A stretch of 26,419 nucleotides of DNA, from positions 1 through 26,419 of the IMG/VR virus record IMGVR_UViG_3300025617_000096; one strand, given 5' to 3'. Below are positions 19,119 through 26,419 of this stretch, one piece after another. Position 1 is the first letter of the stretch, and every line of letters begins with the position of its first letter. The position numbers and the translations under genes were made by a program. The notes below the pieces were generated by a model. The model searched no databases, was not told the origin of the DNA, and was given only the letters and a program-made list of their open reading frames with translations. The DNA comes from a virus.

Positions 19119-19239
19119 ATTCTACCATGGCTATCACTATTTCTCTACCATCAATCTGACAAGATACCCATGCACAACCGAACATGAGTACCTTGAAAGG
19201 TGTTGCTAGAAATGCTAAAATATTATTCGTATACCTCAT
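19096..19239 (-). CDS. Small hydrophobic 47-aa protein
   Basis: Begins MRYTNNILAFLATPFKVLM; residues 8-27 are mostly hydrophobic and may form one membrane segment, followed by an acidic tail (EYDDDSEV). GGAGA lies about 10 bases upstream of the ATG. It overlaps the end of the preceding gene by 17 bases and the next gene's start by 23 bases, in keeping with the style of the operon. Function unknown. Confidence 0.5.
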   Translation of the reverse strand: MRYTNNILAFLATPFKVLMFGCAWVSCQIDGREIVIAMVEYDDDSEV

Positions 19240-20355: not shown

Positions 20356-20626
20356 CTTGTAGTGCCTCACGAAGATCTGATGTAATACCCATATTACCAT
20401 CCTCATCAATGATAATATTTTCTTCTACCATATTATCGAAACAAACACCAGAGAATTGTAGAAATAGAAAGAGATAGGCTAGCTCATCGTCTATCAACTC
20501 TTTCAGAGATAACCCATCTATTACTTCCCAGAGGCTAACGATCCCTGCTTCCAGCAATCGTTGCTCCTCATCCTCAAGGCTTACTTCGACTTTATGTTTA
20601 GGTTTAAAGTCGATGACATCACCCAT
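20300..20626 (-). CDS. Hypothetical acidic 108-aa protein
   Basis: Begins MGDVIDFKPKHKVEVSLEDEE, is strongly acidic, and has a hydrophobic patch (ELAYLFLFLQFSGVCF) in the middle that is too interrupted for a confident membrane call. Its ATG overlaps the TAA of the ssDNA-binding protein gene by one base (TAATG), so it is probably co-translated with it. Not recognised. Confidence 0.65.
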   Translation of the reverse strand: MGDVIDFKPKHKVEVSLEDEEQRLLEAGIVSLWEVIDGLSLKELIDDELAYLFLFLQFSGVCFDNMVEENIIIDEDGNMGITSDLREALQDAIKDIKRELTANDNSPE

Positions 20627-21111
20627 TAAAAGTCTACCTGCTCTTCAGTTTCTGATTCACCTTCAATGATATCAAAGTCTGTACCTGTGTTTGGTGTGTA
20701 CTCTTTGAGTTCTGTGATTTGTACTTTAGACAAGATGCTTGCCACACCTTTACGGCCACCTACATCATACGGATACTGGAATAGCATTACATTACCGATA
20801 CTACCATTACCTACCTTGTTTCCGTCCATGCTTTTCTTAGCACCGTCTAGTACTTCAGGCGCATCATTAGGCTCACCATCTTTCTTAAGTGCTTTACGCT
20901 TGACGTTTGTTTTGTAGAATACACCGTCATCATCTTCTTCTGTCTTGACATTGAGATAAAAGTCTTCCTTCCATTTCTTTGCTTCGTTCTTATCACGAGT
21001 ACGCATTTGCAGTTCCCACTGTAGTGTACCGAAAGGCTCTACAGGCTTTACCAGCTTAGCCCAGTGAAGTTCTGCATTACGAATAATCTCAGTTCGCTTT
21101 TCATTAATCAT
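20626..21111 (-). CDS. gp2.5-like ssDNA-binding protein (copy A)
   Basis: A 161-residue OB-fold single-stranded DNA-binding protein for replication and recombination. The N-terminal block IIRNAELHWAKL...PFG and C-terminal block GNGSIGNVMLF...GGRKG resemble the T7 gp2.5 core (IIGGGSKLKVKYS). The protein ends in an acidic tail closing with DF (ESETEEQVDF), the feature by which gp2.5 contacts the polymerase and helicase. A clear paralogue lies at 23970-24431. GAGGAA lies about 8 bases upstream of the ATG, which overlaps the preceding zinc-ribbon gene by 8 bases. A lysine-rich middle segment (about 40-95) is longer than in copy B. Confidence 0.82.
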   Translation of the reverse strand: MINEKRTEIIRNAELHWAKLVKPVEPFGTLQWELQMRTRDKNEAKKWKEDFYLNVKTEEDDDGVFYKTNVKRKALKKDGEPNDAPEVLDGAKKSMDGNKVGNGSIGNVMLFQYPYDVGGRKGVASILSKVQITELKEYTPNTGTDFDIIEGESETEEQVDF

Positions 21112-23135: not shown

Positions 23136-23166
23136 TGTTTGTTCTTTCTTTCTGTTGGACGTTACT

Positions 23167-23207
23167 AAAGGGATACCTTAAAGGGATACCTTAAGGATAT
23201 ACCCTTT
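23167..23207 (-). repeat. 13-nt tandem repeat in leader, with fold-back
   Basis: AAAGGGATACCTT (read on +) occurs at 23167-23179 and again at 23180-23192, followed by the related AAGGATATACCCTTT (23193-23207). In the - strand transcript the last element (AAAGGGTATA) can pair with either copy of TATCCCTTT, giving two alternative hairpins. It begins 1 base inside the putative promoter's downstream edge and ends about 31 bases before the first gene, so it may act as an untranslated leader control element or a protein-binding site. Confidence 0.6.
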
Positions 23208-23208
23208 C

Positions 23209-23223
23209 CCCCTATAAGGGTGT
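23209..23223 (-). promoter_or_regulatory. Candidate phage RNA polymerase promoter (copy 2)
   Basis: The - strand reads ACACCCTTATAGGGG, identical over 15 bases to the + strand copy at 2517-2531, and preceded like it by an A-rich stretch. It points leftward into the gene run beginning at 23135 and lies 10 bases after the stop of the 51-aa gene. Two exact copies, each oriented with its downstream operon, argue for a promoter. Confidence 0.55.
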
Positions 23224-23389: not shown

Positions 23390-23718
23390 TAGTGTACCTC
23401 TAAGTTAGTGTCAGTGTCGTATGGTCCATTGTGTAAAGCGTCATCTTCGTAGTTCACCTCAAGTGTTATGTAGACTGCGCCATCGCGTACTTCTAGTGGA
23501 CACTCTGTGCGATCCCCTTCGATCCAGACGAACAGGGAGTCTCCTAGTGTAGCTGCAAACTTGACTACGTCAGGGTCTGTGTCATGACATAGAATGATCT
23601 CATCATAAGACCAGTCATAGGCATACCAGTGAGCGTTATCGAGTGTATTGCTTTTGAATTCGATATCGTAGTTAGATGAATAGTAGTTACAAATATAGCA
23701 ATTGATTTCTAGTGACAT
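23389..23718 (-). CDS. Hypothetical very acidic 109-aa protein
   Basis: Begins MSLEINCYICNYYSSNYDIE; strongly acidic and rich in Asp and Tyr, with a beta-strand-like middle (DSLFVWIEGDRTE, GAVYITLEVNYE). The acidity would fit a DNA mimic, but nothing specific supports this. AAAGGAA lies about 8 bases upstream. Not recognised. Confidence 0.68.
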   Translation of the reverse strand: MSLEINCYICNYYSSNYDIEFKSNTLDNAHWYAYDWSYDEIILCHDTDPDVVKFAATLGDSLFVWIEGDRTECPLEVRDGAVYITLEVNYEDDALHNGPYDTDTNLEVH

Positions 23719-23731
23719 TGTAGTGTTCCTT

Positions 23732-23812
23732 TTAAGTGATAATTGGAATTAGAATTAACGGGACAAGGACAGCGACAACAAGCGCCACCCACCAACGAAA
23801 ACTTGGTAACAT
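23732..23812 (-). CDS. 26-aa membrane peptide
   Basis: Starts MLPSFRWWVALVVAVLVPL and is hydrophobic from residue 7 to the end, so it is one membrane helix. The frame is very short but has the best ribosome binding site of the area (AAAAGGAG, about 6 bases upstream), and lies alone between the terminator at 23868-23892 and the next gene. It may act on the host membrane or be a minor lysis/inhibition peptide; this is inference. Confidence 0.55.
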   Translation of the reverse strand: MLPSFRWWVALVVAVLVPLILIPIIT

Positions 23813-23867
23813 ATAAAACTCCTTTTAGTGGTTACGATTAGCGGTTATGATACCTCTTTTTGAAAAT

Positions 23868-23892
23868 AAGGTAGCCCTTTCGGGCTAGCCTT
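23868..23892 (-). terminator. Intrinsic terminator after ssDNA-binding protein copy B
   Basis: AAGGTAGCCC and GGGCTAGCCTT form a stem with a one-base bulge and a 4-base loop, TTTC on +. On the - strand it is followed by TTATTTTC, and on the + strand by TTTTATTT. It lies in the 250-base space between the 153-aa ssDNA-binding protein gene and the 109-aa gene and should end or thin out the transcript coming from the right. Confidence 0.75.
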
Positions 23893-23967
23893 TTATTTGT
23901 GGAATATACTAGTGTAGTACCAAGCTACTATTAAATATACGCATAGGAAGAATAGTGCTATGCCCAC
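23893..23967 (-). CDS. Possible 24-aa membrane peptide (GTG start)
   Basis: After the ssDNA-binding protein stop, GTG at 23967 opens a 24-codon frame (GIALFFLCVYLIVAWYY in its core) that is one hydrophobic helix with a basic end (FHK). It has no ribosome binding site and would rely on reinitiation after the TAA at 23970. Its stop touches the terminator. Listed because of the strong hydrophobic character; weak as a gene. Confidence 0.25.
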   Translation of the reverse strand: MGIALFFLCVYLIVAWYYTSIFHK

Positions 23968-23969
23968 TA

Positions 23970-24431
23970 TTAGAAGTCTTGTGCTGGTGCTGCGTCAGCG
24001 CCTTCTCCTACTACTAAGTCAAAGTCAACACTTGCTTCAGGGTTGTAAGCTACAAGGTCAGTTACTTGCACAGCAATTAGAATAGTTTTACGACCACTGC
24101 GACCGCCTGTAGACCAATCATATGAGTATACAATCAAGTTACCTGTAGAGCCATTACCGATAGGGTCAGTAATAGGTGCTTTTTCATTGTTGACTACACG
24201 AATACTATTACTTTGGCCTTTATTATTTACAGCAGGGCGGTTAATGTTTAGTGCAAAGTTACCATTAGGAAGCTGTCTTACTTTACCGAATGGTGTCATT
24301 TCATCAATACGATCTTTACTGAATTCAATTTGAATATCGAATTGTTCTTTACCGAATGGATTCATTTCAGCTTTGTATACTTTAGCATAGTTGAGTTTAA
24401 CGTTACGAATAATTGAAGTTTGCTTAGTCAT
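23970..24431 (-). CDS. gp2.5-like ssDNA-binding protein (copy B)
   Basis: A 153-residue paralogue of the protein at 20626-21111. Shared blocks are IIRN-x-L-xx-AK (N-terminal), PFG-xx-Q, GNGS-x-GN, a GGR motif, VQ-TDL/TEL-x-YNP/YTP, and a final acidic stretch ending in DF (AAPAQDF). It lacks the lysine-rich insertion of copy A and its tail is less acidic. AAAGGAA lies about 9 bases upstream of the ATG. It is separated by a terminator from the genes to its left and by two dyads and a hairpin from the gene to its right, so it is probably controlled on its own. It may serve early replication or recombination, or bind a different partner than copy A. Confidence 0.8.
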   Translation of the reverse strand: MTKQTSIIRNVKLNYAKVYKAEMNPFGKEQFDIQIEFSKDRIDEMTPFGKVRQLPNGNFALNINRPAVNNKGQSNSIRVVNNEKAPITDPIGNGSTGNLIVYSYDWSTGGRSGRKTILIAVQVTDLVAYNPEASVDFDLVVGEGADAAPAQDF

Positions 24432-24458
24432 TGGGTGTTCCTTTCAAGAACGTTAATT

Positions 24459-24488
24459 GTGCAACATTGCACTAGGACATGATTGTCC
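24459..24488. promoter_or_regulatory. Two adjacent dyads upstream of ssDNA-binding protein B
   Basis: GTGCAACATTGCAC (24459-24472) is a perfect inverted repeat with a 2-base centre, and GGACATGATTGTCC (24475-24488) has 4-base arms. They lie 28 to 57 bases upstream of the ATG at 24431. They could be operator sites or small RNA hairpins; the second overlaps the end of the neighbouring intergenic hairpin by 2 bases. Confidence 0.4.
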
Positions 24489-24522
24489 TTTAGACTACAC
24501 CCGTTAAGATGTAGTCAGAAGG
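24487..24522 (-). other. Conserved intergenic hairpin 1
   Basis: On the - strand CCTTCTGACTACATC, loop TTAACG, GGTGTAGTCTAAAGG. The stem has a 2x2 internal loop (CU facing UA) at positions 5-6 and starts directly after the TAG stop of the preceding gene. No T run follows, so it is unlikely to be a terminator; a ribonuclease processing site or mRNA stabiliser is more likely. It has two close relatives at 24893-24928 and 25346-25381. Confidence 0.7.
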
Positions 24523-24855
24523 CTAATCACTTTCCTGGTCATATTCAGTGTCAGTTTCTCCTTCTAGTAACCAAGCATCAACACTATTTCCAGATACAGT
24601 AAAATGTGTTGCTTCTTGACTAATGTTGTATAAGTTACAATCGTTAATATGCATTCCTTTTGCAGTTCTAAATTTGCTTACAGGATTATCAAAGATAGTT
24701 TCGTGTGTTAACAGTCCATGTATGTCGTGACCACTAGAAATCATACAATCAGCTATCTCAAAAACACCGCCTAATCCTATATCATCATTCTTAACTTCTA
24801 CTTCATAATCACGTTCAAATACATGGCGTACAGTAATAATCTTTTTAACGGTCAT
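24523..24855 (-). CDS. Hypothetical acidic 110-aa protein
   Basis: Begins MTVKKIITVRHVFERDYEV. The ATG at 24855 is chosen because AAGGAGA lies about 7 bases upstream; a longer frame from 24909 would begin inside the hairpin loop. An Ile/Val-rich first strand is followed by DDIGLGGVFEIADCMISSG, and the C terminus is very acidic (EGETDTEYDQESD). It shares its hairpin-flanked setting with the 128-aa gene to its right. Not recognised. Confidence 0.65.
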   Translation of the reverse strand: MTVKKIITVRHVFERDYEVEVKNDDIGLGGVFEIADCMISSGHDIHGLLTHETIFDNPVSKFRTAKGMHINDCNLYNISQEATHFTVSGNSVDAWLLEGETDTEYDQESD

Positions 24856-24892
24856 TTCAAATCTCCTTATACCGTAAATAGGACTTAAGTGT

Positions 24893-24928
24893 CTTCTAAT
24901 ACACACCATTACTGATGTGCATAGGAGG
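24893..24928 (-). other. Conserved intergenic hairpin 2
   Basis: On the - strand CCTCCTATGCACATC, loop AGTAAT, GGTGTGTATTAGAAG. The internal 2x2 loop (CU facing UA) is at the same place as in hairpins 1 and 3, while the stem pairs differ. It begins directly after the TAG stop of the 128-aa gene. No T run follows. Confidence 0.65.
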
Positions 24929-25315
24929 CTACTTCCACACTCTTAATTCGTCAGCAACATCTATTTCATCTATCCAATTAATTTGTTTTGATTCGTCTTG
25001 GTATTCTAACCATATATCATCGATTATTTTATTAGCAGGGTGACTTTTGTTCATAAGAGCGTACTCAAACTCCTTGAGATTTCTTTTTGAACCTGTAAAA
25101 GTAAATCCTAACTCAACTTCATCAAAACAAGATACTCGACAATCAGTAGTTTGAATGTCAAATATATTGCAAATTGTAGTTATTACTCTGTCTATGTATT
25201 TTTCGTGTATATAATCACTTTCATCACAAAATACATAACCCCATCCATACTGTACAACACTCAGTATATAGGTTTCTTCAGTAACCCTATCGATATCAGT
25301 ATGACCTGTAAACAT
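24929..25315 (-). CDS. Hypothetical acidic 128-aa protein
   Basis: Begins MFTGHTDIDRVTEETYILSV. AAGGAG lies about 6 bases upstream of the ATG. It has three scattered cysteines, many Asp/Glu and Ile, and an ELRVWK C terminus. The first half may be an alpha/beta fold (SVVQYGWGYVFC, then IDRVITTICNIFDI). Not recognised. It is flanked on both sides by the conserved hairpins. Confidence 0.68.
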   Translation of the reverse strand: MFTGHTDIDRVTEETYILSVVQYGWGYVFCDESDYIHEKYIDRVITTICNIFDIQTTDCRVSCFDEVELGFTFTGSKRNLKEFEYALMNKSHPANKIIDDIWLEYQDESKQINWIDEIDVADELRVWK

Positions 25316-25345
25316 TTAAAACTCCTTTTAGTTAATACAAAGTGT

Positions 25346-25381
25346 CCTTTAGAATACACCTCGAAAGGTGTACTCAGAAGG
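25346..25381 (-). other. Conserved intergenic hairpin 3
   Basis: On the - strand CCTTCTGAGTACACC, loop TTTCGA, GGTGTATTCTAAAGG. It has the same length, the same 2x2 internal loop and the same position after a stop codon (4 bases) as hairpins 1 and 2. Relative to hairpin 1, stem position 9 changes from a C-G pair to a G-U pair and position 14 from U-G to C-G, both keeping the pairing. Confidence 0.7.
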
Positions 25382-25385
25382 TAAC

Positions 25386-26033
25386 TTAGAATCCGATATC
25401 GATTTGTTCAGAGACATCTCGTTGACCCTGCCAATTCCGTGGTATGAAGGTGTATTGAGGGAATCTACCGAGTATCTTATCTAGATAGATGTAGTTCCAA
25501 CCATGTGTTTCATTTAGCTCATGTATGATTCGGTTGTTATAGCTTTGAGCATACATGTGGCAACAATTGATATCACCGTCTTTATCCATCCAGATACGAG
25601 ACAGACTTATTGGGAAGTCTTTGATTACTTCAAGTGCATCTATATTGGTTTGTATGAGCTGTACTTTTGTGTATTCAGTACTTTTGGCTCTGGGTGAGAG
25701 CTTACTAGCATTATATTCGTGTACAGAGTGAAGTAACGGATTATTGTTTACACCGTAACCGCCTTGACTGTAATCTTGTGAGACTTTATCACACTCAGTA
25801 TCAAGCATAGCTGTAACGTGAGTTTTGAATTCTTTTGGAACTGAGAAGAATATATCGATATCTCGACAGCCCCATCCATGATGCCAGTCACGAGGTGCGC
25901 CTCCAGCTACGTAGGCTTGAGAGCCTTGTGGAAGTTTATTTAGCAATAGATTAAGATGTTTCTTAGCTACAGCTTTTTGTGCTTTAGGAAACATACCAGT
26001 TGACAGTGTTGTTTTCAGTTGAATCGAAAGCAT
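25386..26033 (-). CDS. Pol-beta-type nucleotidyltransferase
   Basis: A 215-residue protein with the nucleotidyltransferase core YVAGGAPRDW (41-50) and CRDIDIFF (56-63). The GG...RD...D58-x-D60 layout is that of Pol-beta superfamily enzymes such as CCA-adding polymerase. A phage-typical block KDFPISLSRIWMDKDGD follows (138-154). The substrate is unknown: it could add nucleotides to tRNA or RNA, or modify a protein. The C-terminal RNA-binding domains of true CCA enzymes are not evident. The start at ATG 26033 is supported by AGGAG 5 bases upstream; a longer frame from 26120 would run through the preceding gene. Confidence 0.78.
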   Translation of the reverse strand: MLSIQLKTTLSTGMFPKAQKAVAKKHLNLLLNKLPQGSQAYVAGGAPRDWHHGWGCRDIDIFFSVPKEFKTHVTAMLDTECDKVSQDYSQGGYGVNNNPLLHSVHEYNASKLSPRAKSTEYTKVQLIQTNIDALEVIKDFPISLSRIWMDKDGDINCCHMYAQSYNNRIIHELNETHGWNYIYLDKILGRFPQYTFIPRNWQGQRDVSEQIDIGF

Positions 26034-26034
26034 A

Positions 26035-26310
26035 TTAGGCTCCTGTTGTTTTGCGTGATTGTTTGATTTCTTCTTGAGCATACCATTCTTCAAGTATTTC
26101 TTTTGAGGCTGGTGATTCACCTGGACCAGCGGTTTCTTCGAGATACTCTATATAGCCTTGGCGGTACTTTTCCTCGACTTCACCGATGTATATATTATGG
26201 GTGATTGCATCTTCATATATACGATATTGACGATCTTGTAGCTCTACTAGAGCAGTTTGTACAAGTTCTTCAATTTGACGGTTAGACATATCGGTTATAT
26301 CGATATTCAT
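26035..26310 (-). CDS. Hypothetical 91-aa acidic helical protein
   Basis: Begins MNIDITDMSNRQIEELVQTA and is rich in Glu, Gln and Tyr (QDRQYRIYEDAI, EEKYRQGYIEYLEE), probably helical. AAGGAG lies about 8 bases upstream of the ATG at 26310, which overlaps the stop of the preceding mini-gene (ATGA). A Met 24 bases further upstream has no binding site. Not recognised. Confidence 0.68.
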   Translation of the reverse strand: MNIDITDMSNRQIEELVQTALVELQDRQYRIYEDAITHNIYIGEVEEKYRQGYIEYLEETAGPGESPASKEILEEWYAQEEIKQSRKTTGA

Positions 26311-26408
26311 TTGGCGAACTCCTTCATCCAACATTTAGCACATAGCCAATAGAATTTAAAGTTAGTTGTAACAGCAACTTCATCACATCTATTACAAAGC
26401 TTTACCAT
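26307..26408 (-). CDS. Zinc-ribbon mini-protein, 33 aa
   Basis: A 33-codon frame starting MVKLCNRCDEVAV with a second pair later (WLCAKCW), so two CxxC knuckles form a minimal zinc ribbon. Its TGA overlaps the next ATG, as usual in this operon. The upstream side is cut by the window edge; only GGAAAG is seen before the ATG. Probably real because of the Cys spacing and coupling. Confidence 0.6.
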   Translation of the reverse strand: MVKLCNRCDEVAVTTNFKFYWLCAKCWMKEFAK

Positions 26409-26419
26409 GATTACTTTCC

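Follow-up and report, generated by a model that had tools for sequence, protein, structure and literature searches.

The DNA described here is a 26,419-base fragment from an IMG/VR virus record, and the whole of this stretch is termed the window. Its replication genes are T7-like and lie on the - strand, its structural genes are on the + strand, and the phage is of a marine type. The RNA polymerase gene (positions 10752–12890) has Roseobacter phage CRP-7 as its closest isolate, with 33.5% identity; the host of CRP-7 is a Rhodobacteraceae. Genes for a Gp2.5-like single-stranded DNA-binding protein (SSB) are found at positions 20626–21111 as well as 23970–24431 (phrog_112 for both), and positions 15618–16301 show a GIY-YIG endonuclease domain (PF19835, E-value = 1.8e-23), possibly that of a homing endonuclease.

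In the - strand direction, the locus begins with a nucleotidyltransferase-like gene at positions 25386–26034 (phrog_1614, E-value = 1.4e-10; the start codon is our choice). This is followed by two small genes without a family match (positions 24929–25315 and 24523–24855) and by the SSB gene at 23970–24431 (E-value = 1.3e-6), which is the anchor of the slot comparison given below. Downstream of the SSB gene, a terminator scan shows a terminator-like hairpin at positions 23872–23887 on both strands. The transcript of this region is termed early on the basis of gene order only. A megablast search of the hairpin region against phages gave no match.

A first-pass annotation had placed three hairpins between these genes, each directly behind a stop codon. 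All three are present on the - strand, the coding strand at each of them, and fold as - strand RNA. Copy 1 (positions 24487–24522) is located 0 nt past the stop of the gene at 24523–24855 and ahead of the SSB gene, copy 2 (24893–24928) is 0 nt past the stop of the gene at 24929–25315, and copy 3 (25346–25381) is 4 nt past the stop of the nucleotidyltransferase-like gene. The predicted form is a stem of 4 bp, a 2x2 internal loop CU/UA, a stem of 10 bp and a 4-nt loop; in copy 1 the lower stem is CCUU/AAGG. The 15-position stem and 6-base loop of the annotation represent the same helix, in which the predicted fold closes one more pair. The annotation had also stated that stem pairs change and remain paired. 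The changes at positions 9 (C-G to G-U) and 14 (U-G to C-G) are as described, but position 2 in the lower stem of copy 2 is a C.A mismatch that went unmentioned, and thus copy 2 is not fully paired.

Folding energies of the - strand RNA are -17.4, -13.4 and -17.8 kcal/mol for copies 1, 2 and 3, respectively, and the + strand folds are weaker (-12.1, -8.3 and -13.7 kcal/mol). Shuffled sequences fold equally well in 0/200, 3/200 and 0/200 cases. A T/U tract is absent after 3/3 copies, in agreement with the annotation.

A structural scan of the window that permitted no mismatch yielded copies 1 and 3 only, with no match in five mononucleotide shuffles. When one mismatch was permitted, copy 2 and one weak + strand match were added, and there were 0–4 matches per shuffle. 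A covariance model termed R1 was built from 18 copies, leaving out those of the window and an element with the same sequence as copy 1. R1 detects exactly the three copies: copy 1 with 56.9 bits (E-value = 5.8e-16), copy 2 with 26.7 bits (E-value = 1e-6) and copy 3 with 45.3 bits (E-value = 2.1e-12). The next best matches in the window are + strand shadows of copies 3 and 1 (E-values of 0.005 and 0.011). The structural scan relative to shuffles, together with the E-values of an independent model, excludes chance as the origin of the window hairpins. A search of the window with 4227 Rfam families gave no match above the gathering threshold, and a search of the hairpin loci of eight relatives at E-values up to 5 gave only four weak, unrelated matches.

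The window has other hairpins as well. On the - strand, four are found inside coding sequence (positions 13016–13059, 13722–13765, 19156–19199 and 16206–16249); these have energies of -18 to -23.5 kcal/mol per 44 nt, compared with a window mean of -5.3, and the coding strand folds better. Short tandem inverted repeats of the AAGGUAUCCCUUU type are present intergenically at 23166–23209. On the + strand, a strong hairpin (CCCUAAGAGA...UCUCUUAGGG, -23.3 kcal/mol) at positions 2503–2546 is situated shortly past a stop codon between two structural genes and may represent a processing site of the late region.

The full element exceeds a single hairpin. In most copies of the family the first hairpin (H1) has a second one, AGGACA-NNNN-UGUCCU (H2), directly behind it, which the first-pass annotation had overlooked. 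Copy 1 displays a strong H2 at positions 24474–24489 of the - strand (AGGACA-AUCA-UGUCCU). The H2 of copy 2 (24880–24895, - strand) is weak, with GAC/GUC pairing only, and copy 3 has none. The first three bases of H2 are the last three of AAGG; thus the lower stem and H2 are mutually exclusive. A third small hairpin is predicted by folding in the SSB leader at 24459–24472 of the - strand (GUGCA-AUGU-UGCAC), and as judged by eye it has counterparts in some relatives.

Both folds were assessed in 28 distinct copies. For the lower stem combined with the five adjoining upper pairs, 99.2% of the cells are paired, and for the upper pairs with the H2 alternative, 94.8%; both percentages are inflated, as many rows came from a scanner that requires pairing. 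Cells with a double change number 38 in the first case, compared with 7.1 in shuffles and 3–11 in slid structures, and 34 in the second, compared with 5.9 and 3–10. Upper-stem pair 9–46 is G-U in 18/28 copies and can pair only as coding-strand RNA. The covariation and the G-U pairs point to selection on RNA structure. In 24/28 copies the energies of the two folds are within 2 kcal/mol of each other. It should be noted that the alignments (A1 and A4) consist of selected copies; about a dozen of the 30 candidates from the general scan, which differed in sequence, were dropped as chance.

One example shows the relationship of the two folds. In L046, CCUU/AAGG is replaced by CCAA/UUGG and H2 becomes UGGACA/UGUCCA, i.e. 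three positions change together, and the identical change is found in L350, a separate contig. Equal compensation (CCUC/GAGG) is seen in the leaders of L351 and L352, which were retrieved via the neighboring protein alone. The element would be a two-state RNA module with covariation support that matches no Rfam family.

Two readings at the DNA level were rejected. A phage RNA polymerase promoter is at odds with the G-U pairs and compensatory changes, which indicate RNA, and is also disfavored by the R1 matches in the window, these being the three - strand copies and otherwise + strand shadows or weak matches. For a DNA palindrome bound by protein, the coding strand too clearly outdoes the other strand in both fold and score.

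The annotation had regarded the hairpins as a family of intercistronic RNA elements, and this is borne out in relatives, with compensatory changes above both shuffles and slid controls. A scan for CU/UA-loop hairpins in the first 326 loci (3.28 Mb) yielded 14 distinct matches, which form one family by sequence; a general scan and then R1 revealed a wider family. With R1, matches of at least 25 bits number 61, of which 15 are in 60 stretches from the window and from relatives' contigs (839,573 bases) and 46 in 48 further loci (313,854 bases). These collapse to 35 distinct contexts, window copies included, in contigs of related IMG/VR phages. In 26/35 contexts, a frame of at least 40 codons ends in a stop codon no more than 25 nt upstream, and in 33/35 a start codon that has a purine-rich site lies no more than 160 nt downstream. 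The sequence UUUU is found near the 3′ part of the element in only two of the 35 and is there inside the H2 loop. The flanks CCUUCUG and CUAAAGGAC are conserved, and the 49-nt element of copy 1 is present with 100% identity in L204, set between different neighboring sequences. Among the matches listed for the pattern CCTTCTGN{20,34}CTAAAGGAC, 3 of the 80 that were checked are real.

As a control, R1 was applied to 79 other loci (699,761 bases), where the best score, 21.8 bits, is near the weakest accepted matches (25–28 bits). These loci are mostly unrelated ones picked for a terminal sequence pattern, plus T7 and CRP-7, and are a harder control than random DNA. The T7 stretch (L404) shows no listed match to R1 at E-values up to 10.

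The CU/UA internal loop, described in the annotation as conserved, is identical in the three window copies and is the commonest in the family, but it is not constant. The loop is CA/GA in L061b, L204b, L318b, L282b, L046 and L350, GU/UA in L351a, GU/UC in L043 and L047, and GC/UC in L204c, while L044b is fully paired with no internal loop. Variation among relatives, which the annotation held would speak against its proposal, is thus seen for the loop sequence and not for the element. The variability of the loop sequence disfavors a ribozyme core at this site.

In relatives, type II hammerhead ribozymes (RF02276) are found after the corresponding stop codons. A hammerhead scanner that required longer stems and also allowed a CCGANGA core gave 20 distinct hammerheads in 404 loci, all within this phage group; an earlier scan had given five matches, and the one in L247 was judged false. 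With Rfam, RF02276 is found at 16 places in the 12 loci searched (6/16 above the gathering score), and in the leader slot itself in 7/12 loci, two of these above gathering. The remaining leader hammerheads were assigned by the scanner or by eye (L339 and L348); the L122 hammerhead, which has no Rfam match, comes from the scanner alone. The window shows no type II hammerhead core (GAAA / UH / CUGANGA with stems I, II and III) with either Rfam or the scanner. The three copies are therefore not degenerate hammerheads, and the link of the window to hammerheads is a comparative one.

Several phages have CCGAUGA in place of CUGAUGA in hammerheads of their SSB leaders, a predicted natural core variant of type II. 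The scanner shows these on the + strand in L342 (3911–3966), L345 (1824–1885), L347 (3212–3270), L349 (3910–3965) and L354 (3247–3308); as read by eye, L339, L341 and L348 have CCGAUGA-like hammerheads too. CRP-7 (L042, MK613349.1) has a type II hammerhead behind gp01 at positions 570–633 (RF02276, 50.1 bits). The annotated start of gp02 (619) falls inside this hammerhead, and gp02 therefore probably starts later.

The slot ahead of the SSB gene was compared in detail. An SSB profile retrieved 77 viral loci, where a scan with the single SSB sequence had given no relative; the profile gave no relative among genome_contigs, and prophage or host copies were set aside. Leaders were inspected in 48/77 loci, with near-duplicates shown once and with most of the omitted loci belonging to a distant group (~40% identity). 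The 37 SSB rows show a type A hairpin in 11, type B in 10, a hammerhead in 13 and neither element in 3, where type B is a related H1/H2 hairpin pair without a clear lower stem and types A and B were partly assigned by eye. Distant SSBs (L358, L359, L363, L366, L367, L371, L374, L382, L391, L393, L396, L401 and L402) display neither element by eye. Hammerheads are present in L397 and L399, whose SSBs have 37%–41% identity.

An SSB tree of 36/77 loci plus the window, with just two from the distant element-free group, requires eight changes of these labels, the minimum possible being three. Sister pairs differ in their element: L330 has the hairpin and L331 the hammerhead (support 96/86), and the window has the hairpin and L328 the hammerhead (support 93/88). 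L350 and L352, with near-identical SSB proteins, have type B and type A leaders, respectively. The window and L328 have the final part of the nucleotidyltransferase-like gene in common, as far as GATATCGGATTCTAAG. Beyond this point L328 displays a hammerhead and then the SSB gene, whereas the window displays copies 3, 2 and 1 in this order, with a small gene behind each of copies 3 and 2 and the SSB gene behind copy 1. Since L328 passes from the hammerhead straight to the SSB gene, two additional units of a gene plus its hairpin appear to be present in the window.

Both elements can be present in a single phage: G001 has the hairpin ahead of its SSB gene and a hammerhead right behind it. The slot after the SSB stop has a hammerhead, a type A hairpin, or a terminator-like or plain hairpin, depending on the relative; the terminator-like hairpins, with T tracts, are found in L329, L332, L347 and L351.

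The element thus has a defined RNA structure with covariation, two mutually exclusive folds, a position past stop codons and slots that it shares with hammerheads. The hammerheads in corresponding slots of relatives make a processing role of the hairpins well supported as a prediction from sequence comparison. We consider it probable, at about 0.58, that the hairpins are endonucleolytic processing sites, cut probably by an RNase III-type enzyme, and that the RNA then refolds. According to this proposal, a long early transcript would carry the hairpins as intercistronic processing elements, and the cutter would most likely be the host RNase III or a similar double-strand-specific enzyme. The cut would fall in the 3′ strand of either the internal loop or the lower stem, leaving an upstream message that ends in the 10-bp hairpin H1. 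AGGACA would be freed from the lower stem, and H2 could then fold at the new 5′ end of the downstream message. Every gene would become its own message with hairpins at both ends, and new RNA ends would be expected within UAAAGGACA of each copy. With the hammerhead counterpart in relatives, the upstream message would end in stem III and the downstream one would begin with stem I. As both kinds of element put a hairpin on each side, a cut between H1 and H2 is the economical reading. Several points count against parts of this proposal: the helix (4 bp, loop, 10–12 bp) is short for RNase III, the alphaproteobacterial enzyme of S. meliloti requires dsRNA of greater length than that of E. coli (PMC6121014) while a Rhodobacteraceae is the host of CRP-7, the nearest isolate, and the absence of H2 in copy 3 and its weakness in copy 2 do not favor processing plus refolding.

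Other functions were weighed. The hairpins may be passive intercistronic structures that halt 3′ exonucleases, protect 5′ ends or obstruct ribosomes past the stop, with RNA ends arising elsewhere or through ordinary decay. The plain or terminator-like hairpins in the corresponding slot of some relatives, the type B leaders that by eye retain H1 and H2 without a clear lower stem, and the lack of H2 in copy 3 would fit such a role; yet conservation of the lower stem, of the internal loop and of an overlapping H2 is not needed for a passive role, and the exchange with ribozymes is left unexplained, so that this alternative is doubtful, if worth keeping in mind. It is unlikely that the element is a bistable RNA gated by translation, in which a terminating ribosome would cover CCUU, leaving AAGG free for H2 and the RNA uncut, while an untranslated upstream gene would allow the lower stem to form and the RNA to be cut; phages would then swap a gated, protein-dependent cutter for an ungated hammerhead. 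A role in ending or pausing transcription by the RNA polymerase of phage or host, of which the T-tract hairpins in the post-SSB slot of four relatives might be a sign, is quite improbable: the window copies have no U tract, the rare UUUU of the family is in the H2 loop, and three consecutive signals would starve the downstream replication genes. A search of positions 23700–26419 for an intrinsic terminator (a G+C-rich hairpin with a T tract) gave 23872–23887 and none of the copies.

The copy 1 element in L204 and the two extra window genes relative to L328, each with its own element, would fit recombination linkers, i.e. short shared sequences for cassette swapping between phages with the hairpin incidental. 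Selection on RNA structure, indicated by covariation and G-U pairs, makes this very improbable as the explanation, and recombination linking may occur alongside processing. Least probable of all is a new class of small self-cleaving ribozyme. To our knowledge, known ribozymes retain an invariant core, but here the unpaired positions are few and variable, down to the fully paired L044b; this weighs against the exchange with hammerheads in one slot, the conserved flanks and the lack of an Rfam family at threshold in the window, which would otherwise favor a ribozyme.

If processing by cleavage is correct, a single phage group naturally swaps a ribozyme and a hairpin of a different type at identical gene boundaries. 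It could then be tested how phages benefit from cleaving the messages they make, a long-standing question, and whether a ribozyme and a protein can replace each other as the cutter; a covariance model that detects the two-state element is available. No report of an exchange between hammerheads and RNase III sites was found in the titles and abstracts listed from the open PMC literature. Passages of Perreault et al. 2011 (PMC3088659) already propose sets of hammerheads as the means by which phage transcripts are divided into gene-length mRNAs; the present analysis contributes another element, of different structure, that shares their slots.

The element can be compared with several known systems, of which the RNase III sites of T7 are one. 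Passages of PMC6121014 describe a 4/5-nt internal loop in T7 R1.1, which E. coli RNase III cuts at one bond to give 47 and 13 nt (also in passages of PMC4858673), and state that the alphaproteobacterial RNase III of S. meliloti prefers longer dsRNA than the E. coli enzyme. The window element, in contrast to R1.1 as described there, has a 2x2 loop and a 4-bp lower stem. The helix of its family is 14–16 bp in total with a loop, the lower stem being just 4 bp, compared with a near-continuous helix of two turns, lower stem included, in T7-type RNase III sites. Five T7 stretches around what we take to be the positions of R0.3, R0.5, R1, R1.1 and R1.3 fold to 9–13 bp hairpins; 3/5 have CUC before and UAUGA after the stem, and one is directly after UAG. 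Like these sites, the window element is intercistronic with an upper stem of ~10 bp, a small loop and an internal loop beneath, and it has CU before and UA after. Unlike them, its sequence is not homologous and an overlapping second hairpin is the rule in its family. Cutting has been demonstrated for the T7 sites. Since cutting of the window element is a prediction and no T7 homology was found, membership among RNase III sites is not claimed.

Phage T4 has intercistronic CUUCGG hairpins, and the element resembles them as a stable tetraloop hairpin between genes (the loop of copy 3 is UUCG), but here the loop is variable and conservation lies in the lower stem and H2. T4-type phages also have mobile promoter-stem-loop cassettes, to which it is similar as an intergenic element that moves along with gene cassettes; unlike in those, sigma-70 promoter-like sites are not above chance here (3, with a shuffle mean of 9.9). 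Compared with type II hammerheads (RF02276), the window element is without the hammerhead core, but it occupies the slot that they have in relatives, immediately behind stop codons on either side of the SSB gene, and, like them, would leave hairpins at both new ends.
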